A DNA stretch of 64,000 nt from a bacterium (GTDB lineage: Bacteria > Arandabacterota > Arandabacteria > Arandabacterales > Arandabacteraceae). Location of the stretch: the NCBI GenBank assembly GCA_029933125.1, contig JAOZOU010000009.1, positions 25,074 through 89,073 on the forward strand, written 5' to 3'. The notes below the pieces were generated by a model. It ran no database searches. It saw only the letters and a list, made by a program, of their open reading frames with translations, and was not told the origin of the DNA. How positions within the stretch are numbered: the stretch's first letter is position 1; each line of letters opens with the position of its first letter. Shown here piece by piece: positions 4,525 to 63,934 of the stretch. The position numbers and the translations under genes are program-made.

Positions 4525-5766
4525 CTAGTCCGCCGGGTTCACGAGGCGCCCCATGAAGAGGATGGTGCCGGTTGTGTTCTCCTTTATAAGGAAAATGAAA
4601 GGATGATCGGCTCGAAATGTCTTGGCTGGCGTAGGTGCCATCGCGAGCGCCATGGTAACCCCTGTTGCCGCAGCTGCCTCTGTCCCACGCTCATTCACAT
4701 CGACATATGCTTTGTGCACAACAGCTGAGATGAAAAGATCACGCTTGCCTGTCATACCTGAGAAATCCGCTCTTGTTGGCTCGAATGCATCCTTCATGCC
4801 AAGTTCTTCAAGAGCTCCATCAACCCGAAACTTAGTCTCGAGCTTAAAACGCGGAAGGCTTATGTCCACCCGCTCAGGCGCAAGACGCCCAAGCCAGGCG
4901 GAAAGGGAATCAGGGGCAAGCCCCGCCTCGAGCCCTTTGAGCCCCTCAACCTTCCTTGGAAGCAGAATCACCATTGAAAGATCTCCACCCTTGTAGGGGA
5001 GCTCAAGTGCCTGAAAGTCATCTCTCTCAAAATAGTGAAAGTGTCCTTCCTGATGCATCATGGGAATGGTGACCGTCGTTGTGTCATCTACATGGAAGGG
5101 CTCATCCGAGGTGCGCTTCTCCTTGAAAGGATGCTCCCAGTTGCCCAGAAAATAGATGGCGTTGGTAAGCACAAGCCTTACGTCGGGGGTAAGAAGCCCC
5201 CTGCCTATGAGCTCCTGTATCTTGCCCTCAGTCTTCTCAGACACCCACTCATTTATGCGCTCCCTTGCACCAGCGGCATCATTGGCAAAATCAACCTGAA
5301 AAAGGCCTGCCCCATAGTATTTTTTGGTTAAACCTATGAACTCAGCCTCAAACTCATAGCCCTCCTGTGCCCAAAGTGCATTCGCCACACTGAGCTTGAA
5401 GTTGCCTTTCCTACCAAGGGCATTGAGTGAATCTGTAAGCTCCCCAAATGCCTTGTGGATACCCTCACCACCTACCCCACCAAGCCCACCAAAATGCAAT
5501 GCCCGAGCCATCTCCTCAGCAGTCTTACCCCGCGCTCCTGCATATGTCATCGCAAGCGCACTTGAGATGCTGTATGGGGAAAAGAATAGATTTCCTTCCC
5601 CAAGTTGCTGGTAAAGATCAAGCGCAAAAGCATTGTTTCTTGCCGCAAGTGTGTCCATCGTAACCTCTTGTGTTGGCTTTGCCTGGTCGCTTCCACAGCT
5701 AGATGCTCCCATCAGCGACATTCCGATAAGCATTACCGCTATGAATCGCCAATCTCGCAGTCCCAT
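4525..5766 (-). CDS. lipoprotein serpin (serine protease inhibitor)
   Basis: The 413-residue product is a full-length serpin. Start ATG 5766 is preceded by a strong AGGAGGAG. The frame extends farther upstream, but that part covers the promoter. A signal peptide ends in the lipobox MGASSC, so the protein is predicted to be lipid-anchored. Serpin core motifs include NALWAQ, LVLTNAIYFLGNW, the hinge GTEAAAATG (residues 361-369) and the C-terminal DHPFIFLIKENTTGTILFMGRL. The small-residue hinge is the form found in inhibitory serpins. Counting from hinge E359 as P17 puts P1 at Ala375 and P1' at Met376, which suggests elastase- or subtilisin-like targets. Bacterial serpins are sporadic and protect against host or own proteases. 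Here the target is unknown. Confidence 0.93.
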   Translation of the reverse strand: MGLRDWRFIAVMLIGMSLMGASSCGSDQAKPTQEVTMDTLAARNNAFALDLYQQLGEGNLFFSPYSISSALAMTYAGARGKTAEEMARALHFGGLGGVGGEGIHKAFGELTDSLNALGRKGNFKLSVANALWAQEGYEFEAEFIGLTKKYYGAGLFQVDFANDAAGARERINEWVSEKTEGKIQELIGRGLLTPDVRLVLTNAIYFLGNWEHPFKEKRTSDEPFHVDDTTTVTIPMMHQEGHFHYFERDDFQALELPYKGGDLSMVILLPRKVEGLKGLEAGLAPDSLSAWLGRLAPERVDISLPRFKLETKFRVDGALEELGMKDAFEPTRADFSGMTGKRDLFISAVVHKAYVDVNERGTEAAAATGVTMALAMAPTPAKTFRADHPFIFLIKENTTGTILFMGRLVNPAD

Positions 5767-5797
5767 CCTTCTCCTCCTTCCTATGTACCCAACCCCC

Positions 5798-5826
5798 ATA
5801 TTATGATAACCACTCTCCAAGGTCAA
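5798..5826 (-). promoter_or_regulatory. promoter of the serpin gene
   Basis: On the minus strand TTGACC (5821-5826) and TAATAT (5798-5803) are 17 bp apart. Transcription would start near 5791, about 25 nt before ATG 5766, which supports that start. Confidence 0.55.
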
Positions 5827-5985
5827 AACCAAACCTTCGGGGGAGATTCCCTCGAAGACCACATACCAGACGCGTGAAATGCATCGCTCGAGGGTATGCT
5901 GAGATCTCATGTGTGGTTCCTTCAGCCCAGATGGAACCTTCTACGCCAATTTGAGAATTTTAGAGTGGAGAGAAGGAGGGTGAGA

Positions 5986-8507: not shown

Positions 8508-11500
8508 CTACCTCCAGTCACCAGAGGAAACAAAAGCAGCCCATCGTACCGGATGATCTATCATTCCATGCGAGCGCAGTTCTTTGAGCACTTTGAGCTC
8601 AACCGCGTTAAGGGTGAATGCAATATTCTCTGGGGGCGTGCTGTAGATGGCACTACAAACTTCGGCAGCAAGTCTGTCAGACACTGGCCACATTGCACCG
8701 ATTATTGTGCGCGCCCCAGCCAGCCGAAAGGCACGCACGGGGCCATAAACGCCTTCGGCATCTTCAAGCTCGCCAGTTGCGGTTTCGCACCCCGAAAGCA
8801 CCACGAGATCGGTTCCTCTGAGATCAAGGGCAAGGATCTCCTCAGAGGTAAGTGTGCCATCATCAATCATTGGGTTCTCAAAGCCTCTACCATGGAGATT
8901 TGCTCGAGCCAGAAAAAGCCCTGATAAGACCAGGGGATTGAGACTATCAGGGTTGATACTTACCCTATCTGCTGAAGGGTAGATCTTCCCCGGCGAGCAA
9001 GATGCCAGGTGATAACCATGGGTTGCAAGGTGAAGCACGCGCTTCCCAGGAGCATCAGCTTTTACCCTTTCCTCAGTTGCGTCTTTGCCGACATAGATAT
9101 ACGCGGGCTCACCTGTGACCTCGCGCCACCTATGAGCTACAGCTTCTACCTCACGGCGGCTCTCAGGGAGAGGTGGAACAACAATGTTGAACCGTTCCTT
9201 GCAGGGAATCGATGTCTGACCATGCTCAAGTAAGTCAAGCTCAGGCTTGAGGGCACCCCTCTCAGGTAAGGCATCGTAGTCGGGGGCACCAATTGCCAGA
9301 AGCCCCTTACCCCGCTTAGGATTTTTCCCAAGCGCAAGGAGGTCGCGAGCAGCTGCGATGTAGTGTACGGGATAATGTTCGATAAGATACTTGCCATCAC
9401 CTGCTATCAAGCCTGCAAAGGAAATGCGCGAAATCTCAGCATCAGAGCAAATGATCACAAGATCCGAACCCTCGAGGTGACCTTCAATCGGCTCAACAAG
9501 GATCTCATAGAGCCTTCTTCCAAGCCTTGTGTAGTATTCCATATCCTCAAGTGTGGGACCTGACCTGGAATCAGCTAACTTCCTCATGTGGTGGCAATAA
9601 AGGCGGACAGCAAAGTCGATGTCAGCAGCATCGCCCAGCTGTACAATACGCACCTCGGAATCACTGGTTAGCACGAGCGCAAGGTATCTGAAAAAGTAGC
9701 CGTTAGGCTCAACCCAGTACTGATACTTGAAATACTCAACAACTGTAGTTCTCATAGGAAATCTTCTCAGGGCACTGAGCACCTTGGCTACACTGGTGTC
9801 AAGTACCTGCGCTGCGTCGGCATGATCAGCTATCAAACTGGCAAGTCTTCGCTCAAGGCGCTCCTTTCGCTTTCTGAGATTTTTGAGCATTGTCTCTAAG
9901 TCTTTGCTGCTGGGGATCTCAGAAGTGTAGAGCACCGAGATTTGCTGGTGAATGAGGCTAAGGGAATCCACAACCGCAGTTGCATAATCTGTCGTTCCAC
10001 GTAAGGCGTGTCTTTGAGCAAGGAGATCAGTGACACCGCCTTTGGACTGCAATACGGCATCTGCAACCTCGAGCGTGGCATGCTCTTCCCTTTCGGGGAG
10101 ATCGAAGTAAGTAGTAAGTAGCCTATCCACACAGGCGAGCTGAACCTCTCGATACTTAAGAGCCTCTCTTTCCGGCATTAGCAGAATCTGATCCGCTACG
10201 GTTTGCCATCCGAGCTCGAGTGTCTCCAGGGCAGCGTCCCAGGCCGCCCGGACGTCACCTCTCATCCTATGAAATCTGCTGAGATCCAGGAGATTCATGG
10301 TTGCATCTGGACCAAGCGAACCGAGTGCTTTCTGCATAGCAATTGCCTTCTCATACATTGGCATTGCTTCACCATAGCGCCGCTCATCTCGATAGCAATT
10401 TGCGAGGGTCATCAAAATGGAAACAATTGCCGGGCTCGCCGTCTCAGCCTCCGTCTCGCAGGAAGCTATTGCTGAAGCACACAGGCTTTCAGCCCTGCTA
10501 TAGTCATGGATGTAGCGGTAGACAGTTGCAAGGGCTGCGATTGCCCGTAGGAGAGCGGGATGCTGAGGACTAAAGGGCTTATTTAAAATTGCAATAGCAC
10601 GTTCCAGGTTGTCTATAGCCATTCTAATGTACTTTGTGTGGTTATTGCTACGCAGCTCGTAGTTCAGGGATCCGAGCTCGGCAAGTACCATACCAATGCC
10701 TGGATGATTCGGTCCAAGACCTACCTCACCTCTCCCGAGAGCATCCTTGAGCACAACATGTGCCTGATCAAACCGCTGGGATGCAACGAGCACTCTTGCA
10801 AAACCGAGCATTGCCTCAAGACGGTGGGTATTCATAGCAGGTGACGTGCGATCAAAAATGGCAAGAGCCTCTTCATAAAGCCTTTCAGCCTCGACAAGGT
10901 TGGCTTGACAATATCTGAGGCGTGCCATATTGGTGATTGTTGAGGCAACGAAAGGGTGCCAGTAACCAAGGCTGATGCCGAGCAATCTTCTGGCCTCAAG
11001 CAAGTGGTATTCTGCCGAAAGATAATCCAGTTTGTAAGTATCTATCAACCCTTGCAGGTTCAGGGTATGCGCTAATGTAACACTGTCGGCCCTGTCCGAT
11101 ATCTCAAGAAGGAAGCGTGACTCATCAAGCCAATCTTGAGCCCTGGTATAGTAACCCTGGGCAACCGCGAGATGAGCAAGAGCGAGATCGATGTGTGCTT
11201 CCCAGCAAGGGTCGGGGTAGTTCTGAGAAAGATAGCGAGCCTGAGATAGATAGCCTTGCGCTTCAGCATAGTGTCCCAGCTCAGTTCCTATCTCACCAAG
11301 GTAGGTAAGAAGTGGCAGGGCCTGCTCGCGCAATTCCGAAGGGGGAGTTCGGGTGATTAATCGCTCCAGCTTCCCGTACAGGCTTGAAAGTTCTTCGTGA
11401 CCACCATACTGGAGATAGAACGCAGCCAAGACTGCAATCTGTGAAGGGAGGGATTGAAATTCCCTTCCCTCACCAATCGACCTCAATGTCCTTGCTAGCT

Positions 11501-11681
11501 TGGCCTGGGCATCACGGTAACTTTCATACTTTAAGAGTCGAGTCGATCCGCATTGGGAATCTACAACAACAATCGGCAGGTAGCCCCCACCAACACTTGA
11601 CGGAGACCCTCCAGCAAGCCTAATTAACCCAAGAGTGCACACTGCTGCGAGGAGGACCTGATTGACTTTCGATGAATCCAT
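8508..11681 (-). CDS. TPR-CHAT caspase-like protease
   Basis: The 1057-residue product starts at ATG 11681 with a hydrophobic signal or anchor (VNQVLLAAVCTLGLIRLAG). The open frame continues to 12137 but there overlaps the promoter and the divergent sigma gene, so the shorter start is chosen. Residues about 60-570 are tandem TPRs (for example ALIDTYKLDYLSAEYHLLEARRL). A helical linker follows, then a CHAT domain (about 760-1050). The catalytic pair is visible: His888 in LHLATHGYH and Cys965 in VVLSGCETATGE, so the protease is probably active. CHAT proteases are caspase relatives (clan CD), including the type III-E CRISPR Craspase and separase-like proteins. Its neighbours are a divergent ECF sigma factor and a zinc-finger anti-sigma factor. 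A regulated proteolytic response is inferred; the substrate is unknown. Confidence 0.9.
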   Translation of the reverse strand: MDSSKVNQVLLAAVCTLGLIRLAGGSPSSVGGGYLPIVVVDSQCGSTRLLKYESYRDAQAKLARTLRSIGEGREFQSLPSQIAVLAAFYLQYGGHEELSSLYGKLERLITRTPPSELREQALPLLTYLGEIGTELGHYAEAQGYLSQARYLSQNYPDPCWEAHIDLALAHLAVAQGYYTRAQDWLDESRFLLEISDRADSVTLAHTLNLQGLIDTYKLDYLSAEYHLLEARRLLGISLGYWHPFVASTITNMARLRYCQANLVEAERLYEEALAIFDRTSPAMNTHRLEAMLGFARVLVASQRFDQAHVVLKDALGRGEVGLGPNHPGIGMVLAELGSLNYELRSNNHTKYIRMAIDNLERAIAILNKPFSPQHPALLRAIAALATVYRYIHDYSRAESLCASAIASCETEAETASPAIVSILMTLANCYRDERRYGEAMPMYEKAIAMQKALGSLGPDATMNLLDLSRFHRMRGDVRAAWDAALETLELGWQTVADQILLMPEREALKYREVQLACVDRLLTTYFDLPEREEHATLEVADAVLQSKGGVTDLLAQRHALRGTTDYATAVVDSLSLIHQQISVLYTSEIPSSKDLETMLKNLRKRKERLERRLASLIADHADAAQVLDTSVAKVLSALRRFPMRTTVVEYFKYQYWVEPNGYFFRYLALVLTSDSEVRIVQLGDAADIDFAVRLYCHHMRKLADSRSGPTLEDMEYYTRLGRRLYEILVEPIEGHLEGSDLVIICSDAEISRISFAGLIAGDGKYLIEHYPVHYIAAARDLLALGKNPKRGKGLLAIGAPDYDALPERGALKPELDLLEHGQTSIPCKERFNIVVPPLPESRREVEAVAHRWREVTGEPAYIYVGKDATEERVKADAPGKRVLHLATHGYHLASCSPGKIYPSADRVSINPDSLNPLVLSGLFLARANLHGRGFENPMIDDGTLTSEEILALDLRGTDLVVLSGCETATGELEDAEGVYGPVRAFRLAGARTIIGAMWPVSDRLAAEVCSAIYSTPPENIAFTLNAVELKVLKELRSHGMIDHPVRWAAFVSSGDWR

Positions 11682-11709
11682 TCCTCCCTGCCTTTGCTTT
11701 TCGAGAAAA

Positions 11710-11738
11710 CGCATACCATGCACTATTTGGGATGTCAA
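11710..11738 (-). promoter_or_regulatory. possible promoter of the TPR-CHAT gene
   Basis: On the minus strand a perfect TTGACA (11733-11738) lies 17 bp from TATGCG (11710-11715), a weak -10. Transcription would start near 11703, about 22 nt before ATG 11681, in agreement with the chosen start. Confidence 0.45.
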
Positions 11739-11954
11739 GCCTGCCAACTCGGATGTGCCCGTCCCAACGCCATAAACAATATTGCACTCCATGCGATTAA
11801 GCTTGAAGATATGGCGTTCGTGAGGTAACATTTGCAGTAGCACACGGTTCCTGCTCGGATCTGCTACGAAAGAGAGCTGGCGGAGGGCAGACTCATCGAC
11901 TTCTCGCTCGAAGATAAGGACACCCGGGAAACCGTCAGGCAATGGATTCAGCCT

Positions 11955-12437
11955 GTGGTAAGAAGTCCAAGGTGGTATCAGCGCATCAAGCACGAAGAGC
12001 AGGATATTTACAATGAAGTTATGTTGAGATTCCTGATTGCATGTCAGAAAGGCCGCGTCGATACTGCAAGAGATCCCAGGCCTTATGTTCAGAAAATTGC
12101 CTTTCACGTCTGCGTTGACTGGATCAGGCGTAACCATCGAGAGGTCCCTTTCGACGACATCACCGAAGAGATTAGCAGGAAGCTTTTCAGGCGTGAGCCC
12201 AGTATTCTCGAAAAGCTCACACGTGATGAAACGGTTGAGGTTCTAGTGGAGCTGATTGGAACCTTGCCTGAGAAATGCCGAAATATATTACGGATGACAT
12301 TTTATGAAGAAAAATCAGAGAAGGCGATTGCAGATGCTCTTGGTGTACCCGTTGGAACCGTAAAATCTAGAAAGTCGAGATGCCTCGACAAGCTCAGGCA
12401 TCTCTTGAAAGGAAAAGACAATCAAGCTATGGATTAG
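11955..12437 (+). CDS. ECF-type RNA polymerase sigma factor, start uncertain
   Basis: From GTG 11955 the product is 160 residues. Region 2 is visible (EEQDIYNEVMLRFL, then DPRPYVQKIAFHVCVDWIRRNHRE), and region 4 ends in a helix-turn-helix (LPEKCRNILRMTFYEEKSE, then AIADALGVPVGTVKSRKSR). There is no good ribosome site before GTG 11955, and the same frame stays open back to 11841. That extra stretch encodes ETVRQWIQPVVRS just before residue 1, which looks like the missing first helix of region 2. No ATG, GTG or TTG exists there; CTG 11877 and ATC 11895 (7 nt after GGAGGG) are the only candidates. It is followed 76 bp later by its presumed anti-sigma factor and is divergent from the CHAT gene. 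Confidence 0.88.
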   Translation: MVRSPRWYQRIKHEEQDIYNEVMLRFLIACQKGRVDTARDPRPYVQKIAFHVCVDWIRRNHREVPFDDITEEISRKLFRREPSILEKLTRDETVEVLVELIGTLPEKCRNILRMTFYEEKSEKAIADALGVPVGTVKSRKSRCLDKLRHLLKGKDNQAMD

Positions 12438-12513
12438 AAAACGATCGGAATTGAGGATCGATGCTTTGTAGAAGGAGCATTCATGGCGTGAGAATCTGAA
12501 GTGAGGTTGGGAT

Positions 12514-13596
12514 GTGTATGCGCAGGGTAGCAGGCATGTAGCAGATTTACTTGACGATTACATCAATAGAAAACTCAATGATTCTCAATCCAAAGTGGTC
12601 GAGGCCCATGTAGCTACCTGTAAGGCCTGTGCCGTTGAGCTTGCCTTCAGGCTGGCAGTAGCCAAAGCCACGAAAAGGTACTATGCGAGGCAATCTCTCG
12701 ACCACGTGGATACCGCCATTCTGGCAGATCTTGCCCTGGGAGGGCATAATCTCAGCCCCGAATCGAAGAACAAAGCTCTCGAGCATATCGCCTCATGCCC
12801 CCAGTGCCGGAAACACTATGAGACAGCAAAGGGTGTTGCCGATGATCTTAATCTGGAGCCGATCCCGTCTCCCAGTGAGTCCCATCCCGGGCCTGACCTT
12901 GCGAAGGAATCTGAGATGCGGCGTGGCCTCATGGTAAGAAACTTCTTTTTGTTTCTATTCGGAAGATGGCGTTATGCTGCCGTAGCCTTTGCCGCTGCTT
13001 TCTTAACCTTTGCAATCATCGAACTAAGCAAGCCATCGTATCCTCCAGGGATAACATCCAGCCCTTCCCTTGGGGAAGGCTCCTCACAGCCCTTTGCAAC
13101 ATCACAGGTCCGAGGAGTAAAGTCCCCGCCTGAGAAGGCTCTCTCTGAGACAGGTGCGGCTACTTCTCCTACCTCAACGATCGGAGCCACCTTGCCCCCA
13201 AGAGTGCTATACTTTGATGCGGGAACAAAGGTGGGACCCGACGAAGAACTTGACTTAGCCAGACTGGAGGTAACAGCTCGGGTGGTTACACTCGCAAGGC
13301 AAGAGAATCTGCTTCTTATAATCGAACGCCCACGAGAGCTTGTAGGCAAGACCATCGGCTGTGTTCAGATCTACAAAGTCGAAGGCTCGGCAGCCATCTT
13401 AGAAACTGAGTGGAGTAAGTTTGCGATTCCAAGGGAAGGGAAAATCCCCCTGATGATACCCTCAGAAATTCTTCAACCCGGCACTTACGCAATCTCAGTC
13501 CAGCCTACCGAACCAGACCAGACTGCAACCTTCTTCCCTGTCAAGGTGAACCTGGAGTCGGCATATTCTTCCGAACAGAAGGAATCCTCAAAGTAA
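12514..13596 (+). CDS. zinc-finger transmembrane anti-sigma factor
   Basis: The product is 360 residues from GTG 12514, with GAGG upstream. Two zf-HC2-type motifs are present: HVATCKAC (about residues 29-36) and HIASCPQC (about 91-98). This doubled HxxxCxxC pattern is typical of ZAS-domain anti-sigma factors that hold ECF sigma factors at the membrane. One membrane segment follows (YAAVAFAAAFLTFAIIEL, about 155-172). The outer part starts with a Ser/Pro-rich linker and ends in a beta-rich domain of about 130 residues (ARVVTLARQENLLLIIERPRE onward). Similar folds act as sensors or carry cargo in related systems. It probably controls the sigma factor just upstream. Its last 56 bp overlap the 3' end of the convergent mobB. 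Confidence 0.85.
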   Translation: MYAQGSRHVADLLDDYINRKLNDSQSKVVEAHVATCKACAVELAFRLAVAKATKRYYARQSLDHVDTAILADLALGGHNLSPESKNKALEHIASCPQCRKHYETAKGVADDLNLEPIPSPSESHPGPDLAKESEMRRGLMVRNFFLFLFGRWRYAAVAFAAAFLTFAIIELSKPSYPPGITSSPSLGEGSSQPFATSQVRGVKSPPEKALSETGAATSPTSTIGATLPPRVLYFDAGTKVGPDEELDLARLEVTARVVTLARQENLLLIIERPRELVGKTIGCVQIYKVEGSAAILETEWSKFAIPREGKIPLMIPSEILQPGTYAISVQPTEPDQTATFFPVKVNLESAYSSEQKESSK

Positions 13597-62587: not shown

Positions 62588-63934
62588 TGGTGTATCCTTC
62601 CATGGTTTCATCCTAAGCGGCGTTTCTGAAGTAGTCACCTATGGATTCTATTCGCTCTGTTCTACGATCCCACTTGGCATTGAAGTAGTAGAATTGACTC
62701 AGGAGTATCCGAGCACAACTTTTCGCATTCTGGAAGTAACCCATCACCTTCAGTCTACGCCTGATCTCCTTGAAACTGCGCTCTATTACGTTGGTAGTGC
62801 GTATCACCTTGTGGAAGGTGGGATCAAACTCGAAGAAGGCTATCAGCCGGTGAAAGTCTCGCTCCAGGCAGGCCTGTCTGCGTGCTACGCACAGGCAGGC
62901 AACCCCCTTAGGACTGACCTCCTGCCAGCGCTGCTTCCATCGACGAAATAGGGCTGCTGCCTTCCTGCTCGTGCCAGCATACATGATCTTGGCCGCTTCT
63001 GCCACACACGCCTCCACCTGGCTCCTCGGCCCATAACGAGCTATATTGCCCAACTTGTGTACCCAGCACAACTGATGAGGGACCAAGGGATACACATCAT
63101 CCAGCGCTGCCCATAAGCCCGGTGCACCATCCACAATGATCAACTCAAGGCTGTGACCAATAAGACCCCTAACACGCAGGTTCTCCAGGAACGACCGCCA
63201 ACTAGCCTCACTCTCCCGCTTGGCTATACTGAAACTAAGAAGACGCCGACTCCCGTCTCGCCTTATCCCATAGGCTATCAAGATTAGCCGCCTCTTGGCA
63301 CTTAACTCATACCGTATCCGCACACTCAGGGCGTCCAGAAACAGAAATGCATACTCATCCTCTATGGGTTCGTTCTCAAACCGCCTAACCTCCCTATCCA
63401 ACTCCTTGCTCACCTGTGATACATAGCCCGCTGAGACTCCCTCACCACAAAGGGCATCAAGCACATCCCCTACCTTCCGGGTGGATACCCCCTTCAGAAA
63501 CATCTCCCTGATGCCCTCATCCACTACCTCATGTACCCGCTTATAGCGCTCAAAAATCTCAGGTACGTACCGACCTTCTCTTGCCCTCGGCACCTCTAAC
63601 TCTACCACTCCCACACTGGTAAGAAGTCTCCTCGTGCGATACCCGTTACGGTAACCCCGACGACTGTCACTACGCTGGTAGCGCTCGGCGCCAAGATAAG
63701 CATCCAGATCCACTCGCATTATCCCCTCAAATGCCCGCCTTACAAGATACCGGCAGCCATCGTTGAAATCCTCCTCAAACATCTTCTTGACTTCTAAAAG
63801 ATCCACTGCTAAGTTGTGTCTCGAGAAGTCTAATTCTTCCATGGTGTCTCCTCCTCTCTAGTCCTTGCGACTGACTGGAAGGATACACCATCTCTTTTCC
63901 CCCTCAATCCCTTCTACACACTCTCTTATACATT
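62561..63934 (-). mobile_element. IS256-family insertion sequence
   Basis: One transposase gene is flanked by related ends: AATGTAAAGAAAAGTGTGTA on the left (62561-62580) and, on the minus strand at the right, AATGTATAAGAGAGTGTGTA (63915-63934). A second matching block, GGTGTATCCTTCCA, is just inside both ends. No target-site duplication could be recognised, so the exact outer limits are uncertain by a few bases. Confidence 0.85.
62613..63842 (-). CDS. IS256-family transposase (mutator type)
   Basis: The 409-residue product is full length for IS256/MuDR-like transposases. The DDE triad is visible: Asp170 in LFLDALSVR, Asp238 in ELIIVDGAPGLWAAL and Glu354 in TTNVIERSFKEIRRRLKVMG. The C-x2-H-like region (HQLCWVHKLGNIARY) between the second Asp and the Glu is also typical. 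There are no frameshifts, so it may be active. It is alone in its element. Confidence 0.96.
   Translation of the reverse strand: MEELDFSRHNLAVDLLEVKKMFEEDFNDGCRYLVRRAFEGIMRVDLDAYLGAERYQRSDSRRGYRNGYRTRRLLTSVGVVELEVPRAREGRYVPEIFERYKRVHEVVDEGIREMFLKGVSTRKVGDVLDALCGEGVSAGYVSQVSKELDREVRRFENEPIEDEYAFLFLDALSVRIRYELSAKRRLILIAYGIRRDGSRRLLSFSIAKRESEASWRSFLENLRVRGLIGHSLELIIVDGAPGLWAALDDVYPLVPHQLCWVHKLGNIARYGPRSQVEACVAEAAKIMYAGTSRKAAALFRRWKQRWQEVSPKGVACLCVARRQACLERDFHRLIAFFEFDPTFHKVIRTTNVIERSFKEIRRRLKVMGYFQNAKSCARILLSQFYYFNAKWDRRTERIESIGDYFRNAA

Follow-up and report, generated by a model that had tools for sequence, protein, structure and literature searches.

Within the window, by which is meant the whole 64,000-nucleotide stretch of bacterial DNA that was analyzed, an ECF sigma factor gene and the gene for a membrane anti-sigma factor (ZAS) lie head-to-head with the gene for an exported TPR-CHAT protein. 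Given its matches to DdvA and Craspase, the trio is best read as a split DdvA-type switch, in which the exported TPR-CHAT protein would sense a signal and inactivate ZAS (probability roughly 0.55). The CHAT protein probably acts upstream of ZAS; that it does so by proteolysis is rated at slightly less than an even chance. The fused relative DdvA is known, and what is additional here is the split trio with a separate exported CHAT protein. In a literature search of incomplete coverage, a weak form of absence, no report of a ZAS, an ECF sigma factor and a separate exported CHAT protein as a trio was found, nor, with the same incomplete coverage, any description of the breadth of the CHAT-sigma link.

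Pfam confirmed the three proteins that the initial annotation had placed here (a CHAT protein, an ECF sigma factor and a membrane anti-sigma factor with a double HxxxCxxC motif), and the His888/Cys965 pair of the first is intact. The TPR-CHAT protein (8508..11681, minus strand; 1057 aa), delimited from Pfam, alignment and structural model, comprises a signal-like peptide (residues ~1-25), a TPR solenoid (~75-600) and a CHAT domain (~640-1057) with the predicted catalytic pair His888/Cys965. Pfam matches the CHAT domain at E 5.7e-51 and also finds TPR repeats, and the structural model has a mean pLDDT of 78.9 and a pTM of 0.74. The open frame extends to 12242, so far that its first 150 residues would run into the sigma gene; judged from the sequence, the start is at about ATG 11681, and 12137 would give a long upstream extension overlapping the sigma gene. 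ATG 11681 is preceded by AGGGAGGA and opens a signal-like N-terminus, MDSSKVNQVLLAAVCTLGLIRLAGG, with a hydrophobicity of 2.76 over 12 residues, which supports the envelope location first proposed for this protein; the residue numbers His888 and Cys965 agree with the same start. His888 is present in every member of an alignment of 22 CHAT proteins and Cys965 in nearly every one, and with a CHAT domain bearing a His/Cys dyad the window protein is a candidate CHAT peptidase of the clan CD fold.

The ECF sigma factor was identified by Pfam and homology in an open frame at 11841..12437 (plus strand), in which Pfam finds sigma-70 regions 2 and 4 only. Its first standard start is GTG 11955. Relatives align with the frame upstream of this codon, where homology demands a start, and no ATG, GTG or TTG lies between 11841 and GTG 11955, so that either a rare start codon or an assembly error is indicated. 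The gene adjoins one encoding HxxxCxxC zf-HC2 motifs, as in an ECF sigma/ZAS pair, and ZAS is proposed from this arrangement to inhibit the sigma factor physically. ZAS itself (12514..13596, plus strand; 360 aa; Pfam, alignment and model) has two zf-HC2 stretches that resemble RsiW, ChrR and RsrA, and its putative zinc ligands, H32/C36/C39 and H91/C95/C98, are invariant in the closest relatives. Basic residues precede its membrane span. The AlphaFold model consists of two three-helix zinc units, a long helix at 130-171 (transmembrane at ~150-171), a disordered stalk at 179-263 and a six-stranded sandwich at 265-345, the last of which matches Ig-like domains weakly by Foldseek.

The initial annotation had held that its proposal would fall if the three genes were not conserved together, and their adjacency recurs in relatives and in other phyla. 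On another contig of the same genome (G000), an ECF sigma gene is followed by a fused 1191-aa ZAS-TM-TPR-CHAT protein (L069) that unites two zinc fingers, a membrane span, TPRs and a CHAT domain in one chain, with its domains named by Pfam. In a genome of the same genus (G001), sigma, ZAS and CHAT genes lie in line, with ZAS and TPR-CHAT sharing a reading frame interrupted by a single TGA (L070:3042-3050), which reflects either a recent split of a fusion gene or a sequencing error. A same-family genome (G002) has, at a contig end, a sigma factor and a ZAS with the C-terminal domain of the window type, and of the three sets in a same-class genome (G007) two are co-directional and one is convergent. 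Genomes outside the phylum that carry the trio include G303 (L144, convergent), whose ZAS combines two zinc fingers with a short outer domain; G332 (L139), with sigma and CHAT genes in line and ZAS divergent; and G214 (L141), with two tandem co-directional copies. About 15 further loci have a zf-HC2 ZAS with CHAT and sigma.

Sampling of genomes placed this recurrence on a quantitative footing. A PF12770 CHAT domain at E 1e-20 or better was found in 99 of 386 sampled genomes, and 100 CHAT loci outside the phylum were fetched regardless of their neighbors, with all frames searched using an ECF sigma profile grown from relatives. An ECF sigma gene lies within 2 kb of CHAT in 33 of these 100 loci, a proportion that does not estimate all CHATs since the loci were drawn from the best-scoring ones. 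Sigma density around the sampled CHATs falls from 0.096/kb at 0-2 kb to 0.023 at 2-4 kb and 0.006 at 4-8 kb, and only 3 of 158 background genes, taken at least 4 kb from CHAT, have a sigma gene within 2 kb (p ~1e-12 versus CHAT). Proximity to ECF genes may be a tendency of TPR proteins generally, and the TPRs may account for some of the CHAT-sigma link: 3 of 20 TPR proteins lacking CHAT are near an ECF sigma gene, a difference from CHAT that is not clear (p 0.087). With so small a TPR-only control, CHAT could not be separated from TPR as the sole cause of the link. On the CHAT tree the sigma-linked label requires 29 changes, fewer than in any of 500 shuffles yet enough to imply repeated gain or loss of the link. 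In an unrelated genome (G054:C1:1387000-1421400; L082-L083), five TPR-CHAT genes of 1200-1700 aa were observed within 35 kb and with no sigma gene nearby.

These data bear on the view that the window CHAT gene lies beside the sigma/ZAS pair by accident and has some other function. A same-family genome (G004; L074-L078) encodes five exported TPR-CHAT proteins and no trio, and the fetched stretches contain no sigma gene except one 3.7 kb off, so a CHAT protein can function without a sigma partner and other roles for the TPR-CHAT family are suggested; the closest supported group of the window CHAT is likewise mixed, with three linked and five unlinked among its eight members. Yet the ZAS relatives of the window, in the same genome (C120) and in G001, G303 and G332, all have CHAT fused or adjoining, and the enrichment over background also argues against an accident. 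The trio is not a chance neighborhood, and that explanation is considered very improbable for the window CHAT.

Comparison with known systems led to DdvA and Craspase. Foldseek matches the window CHAT model to DdvA at E 1.3e-12, and a CHAT-domain profile finds DdvA at E 5.3e-6, with conservation of the ATHG His and of the Cys, and Csx29 at E ~0.07; the ZAS part matches DdvA only weakly (E 0.43). The CHAT model aligns with Csx29 over ~600 residues (Z ~27) and with separase at Z ~25, and these alignments span both the solenoid and the protease. DdvA is a transmembrane anti-sigma factor of Myxococcus xanthus with a CHAT domain, and its structure has been solved (PDB 8rot, 8rw5, 8rlz; Sci Adv 2024 eadp1053, cited in PMC12288465). 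With the sigma factor DdvS it regulates a CBASS-CRISPR defence island, according to the title listed as reference 287 in PMC12288465, and DdvS becomes active once DdvA is inactivated by an as yet unidentified signal (PMC4374960). Like DdvA/DdvS, the window trio joins to an ECF sigma factor the elements of an anti-sigma factor with a zinc-binding domain, a membrane span and an extracytoplasmic portion of CHAT type. The paralogue L069 has the single-chain layout of DdvA, whereas the window encodes ZAS and the exported TPR-CHAT separately, on opposite strands. Further differences are the two zinc fingers and the Ig-like ectodomain of ZAS and the lack of CBASS or CRISPR genes near the trio.

In Craspase, of the type III-E CRISPR systems, the TPR-CHAT protein Csx29, activated by RNA in concert with Cas7-11, cleaves Csx30, the protein that holds CASP-sigma; autoregulation is noted in the same paper (PMC10028731). 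Both loci bring together a TPR-CHAT protein, an inhibitor of a sigma factor and an ECF-type sigma factor, and the TPR-CHAT fold is shared, but no Cas7-11 (RAMP) family match was found in the genome that contains the window, which is 97% complete, and ZAS is a zinc-finger membrane protein, as Csx30 is not described to be. Csx29 is presumably cytoplasmic, and the window CHAT protein carries a signal-like peptide. ECF54 sigma factors are described as having CHAT proteins in their gene neighborhood and no anti-sigma factor, and regulation by proteolysis has been proposed for them (PMC8999054, citing Casas-Pastor 2021 and Huang 2015); judged by gene context, the window locus is unlike ECF54 in that it has a ZAS. 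ZAS shares with RsiW (compare RseA/DegS) a zf-HC2 domain, a membrane span and an extracytoplasmic trigger, but its candidate trigger is a caspase/separase-fold protein and not DegS or PrsW, and it has two zinc fingers rather than one.

On the topology that we infer from sequence, the two zinc-finger units of ZAS would tether the ECF sigma factor to the cytoplasmic face of the membrane and the Ig-like domain would reach outward into the same compartment as the exported TPR-CHAT. The fused form places CHAT beyond the membrane span from ZAS, and thus outside. Among loci with an identified zf-HC2 ZAS, a membrane ZAS is accompanied by a signal-bearing CHAT in 18 of 21 and a soluble ZAS by a non-exported CHAT in 9 of 11 (Fisher p 3e-4), with one of the mismatches being the split fusion of G001. 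A phylogeny-aware view leaves at most four independent contrasts, because the soluble cases come mostly from one family, and the match was therefore set aside as phylogenetically independent evidence; it fits, at most, an encounter of CHAT and ZAS in a single compartment. The TPR solenoid would then sense the signal, CHAT would inactivate ZAS, most likely by cutting the stalk (about 179-263) with His888/Cys965, and a membrane protease would go on to release the sigma factor, so that the switch would work like DdvA/DdvS split into two genes, or like Craspase without CRISPR. Cleavage of the anti-sigma factor by CHAT, as the initial annotation had suggested, is plausible by analogy with Craspase, and the intact dyad together with the long disordered stalk favors cutting over contact.

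Signaling by the fused form need not involve proteolysis. TPR-CHAT might instead be a sensor or scaffold that binds the ZAS ectodomain, or in the fused form is part of ZAS, and transmits a conformational signal, with CHAT used as a ligand- or peptide-binding fold. Neither the fused ZAS-TM-TPR-CHAT protein nor the structurally solved, transmembrane DdvA needs a separate protease, several ZAS ectodomains are themselves TPRs that could dock on TPR-CHAT, and in two of the sigma-linked CHATs the catalytic His is replaced by Tyr. The His/Cys dyad is nevertheless kept in 51 of the 53 sigma-linked CHATs, which is unexpected of a pure scaffold, and the window CHAT is a separate exported protein; a non-proteolytic role is considered rather unlikely.

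The order of events in the split DdvA-type switch could also be reversed, with CHAT as an effector under sigma control, an envelope protease or a toxin, rather than a regulator. ECF sigma factors often target adjacent genes, and the window CHAT gene is head-to-head with the sigma gene. The intervening region, from the CHAT start to the earliest plausible sigma start (11682..11876, defined on sequence), has on its minus strand a perfect TTGACA followed after 17 nt by TATGCG, a weak sigma70-like site for CHAT that falls below threshold in a promoter scan of the region, in which no site exceeded it. A search for bipartite motifs common to the regions preceding CHAT and the sigma genes found no more than in shuffles, so that a sigma-driven CHAT promoter was rejected, and sigma70-like promoters precede the sigma genes of G001 and G002. 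The earlier expectation that the sigma factor transcribes CHAT thus failed to find support. The lack of a shared ECF-like motif, the ZAS-CHAT fusion, and trios that are convergent or have CHAT away from the sigma promoter all speak against CHAT as an output, which appears improbable.

The locus had also been described as a self-contained signal-transduction or suicide module. Conserved adjacency and the ZAS-CHAT fusion support the signal-transduction part. PADLOC gave no match for the three trio proteins or ten neighbors, and no RAMP or type III CRISPR gene was found in the genome (97% complete), so the suicide part is not supported, and a suicide or defence effector was rejected with no PADLOC, CRISPR or defence neighbor in evidence. 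A defence regulon of the window sigma factor is conceivable, since DdvA/DdvS regulates a defence island. The neighbors are mostly housekeeping genes (MobB, IspG/GcpE, an M20 peptidase and NAD(P)H-hydrate dehydratase), and a Mutator-family (IS256-like) transposase lies at the window edge (62613-63842, minus strand). There is also a lipoprotein-type serpin (4525-5910, minus strand; Pfam E 6.5e-130) 2.6 kb from the CHAT gene. As a candidate CHAT inhibitor it was discarded, with only two other serpins (L253, L215) in 140 loci, about chance by a rough estimate.

A second, soluble CHAT cassette is present in all eight genomes of the phylum and consists of a CHAT-TM-PEGA protein, a redoxin-like protein, an ECF sigma factor and a one-finger ZAS with no membrane span, its domains having been named by Pfam for the copy in the window's own genome (contig C42, L087:6643-9805; other copies L149-L155). 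In five of the eight genomes the cassette is followed, on the opposite strand, by a gene for a CBS-domain site-2 protease (M50); it was not seen in the fetched stretch of the other three.

In summary, the split trio of the window, the fused proteins (L069, DdvA) and the soluble CHAT-PEGA cassette could be forms of one widespread envelope pathway in which an exported caspase/separase-fold protease serves as the site-1 protease of zinc-finger anti-sigma factors, and from which the CRISPR-linked Csx29/Csx30/CASP-sigma cassette would have been recruited, a generalization that is at present speculative and rather doubtful. If true, Craspase/CASP-sigma, DdvA/DdvS and ECF54 would become one theme of caspase/separase-fold regulators of ECF sigma factors that spans many phyla, mostly outside CRISPR. 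The loci would offer simple systems, free of CRISPR and from non-pathogens, for studying possible cleavage of an anti-sigma factor by a bacterial caspase-like protein, and the split, fused and soluble forms would provide a natural experiment on the evolution of such a switch.
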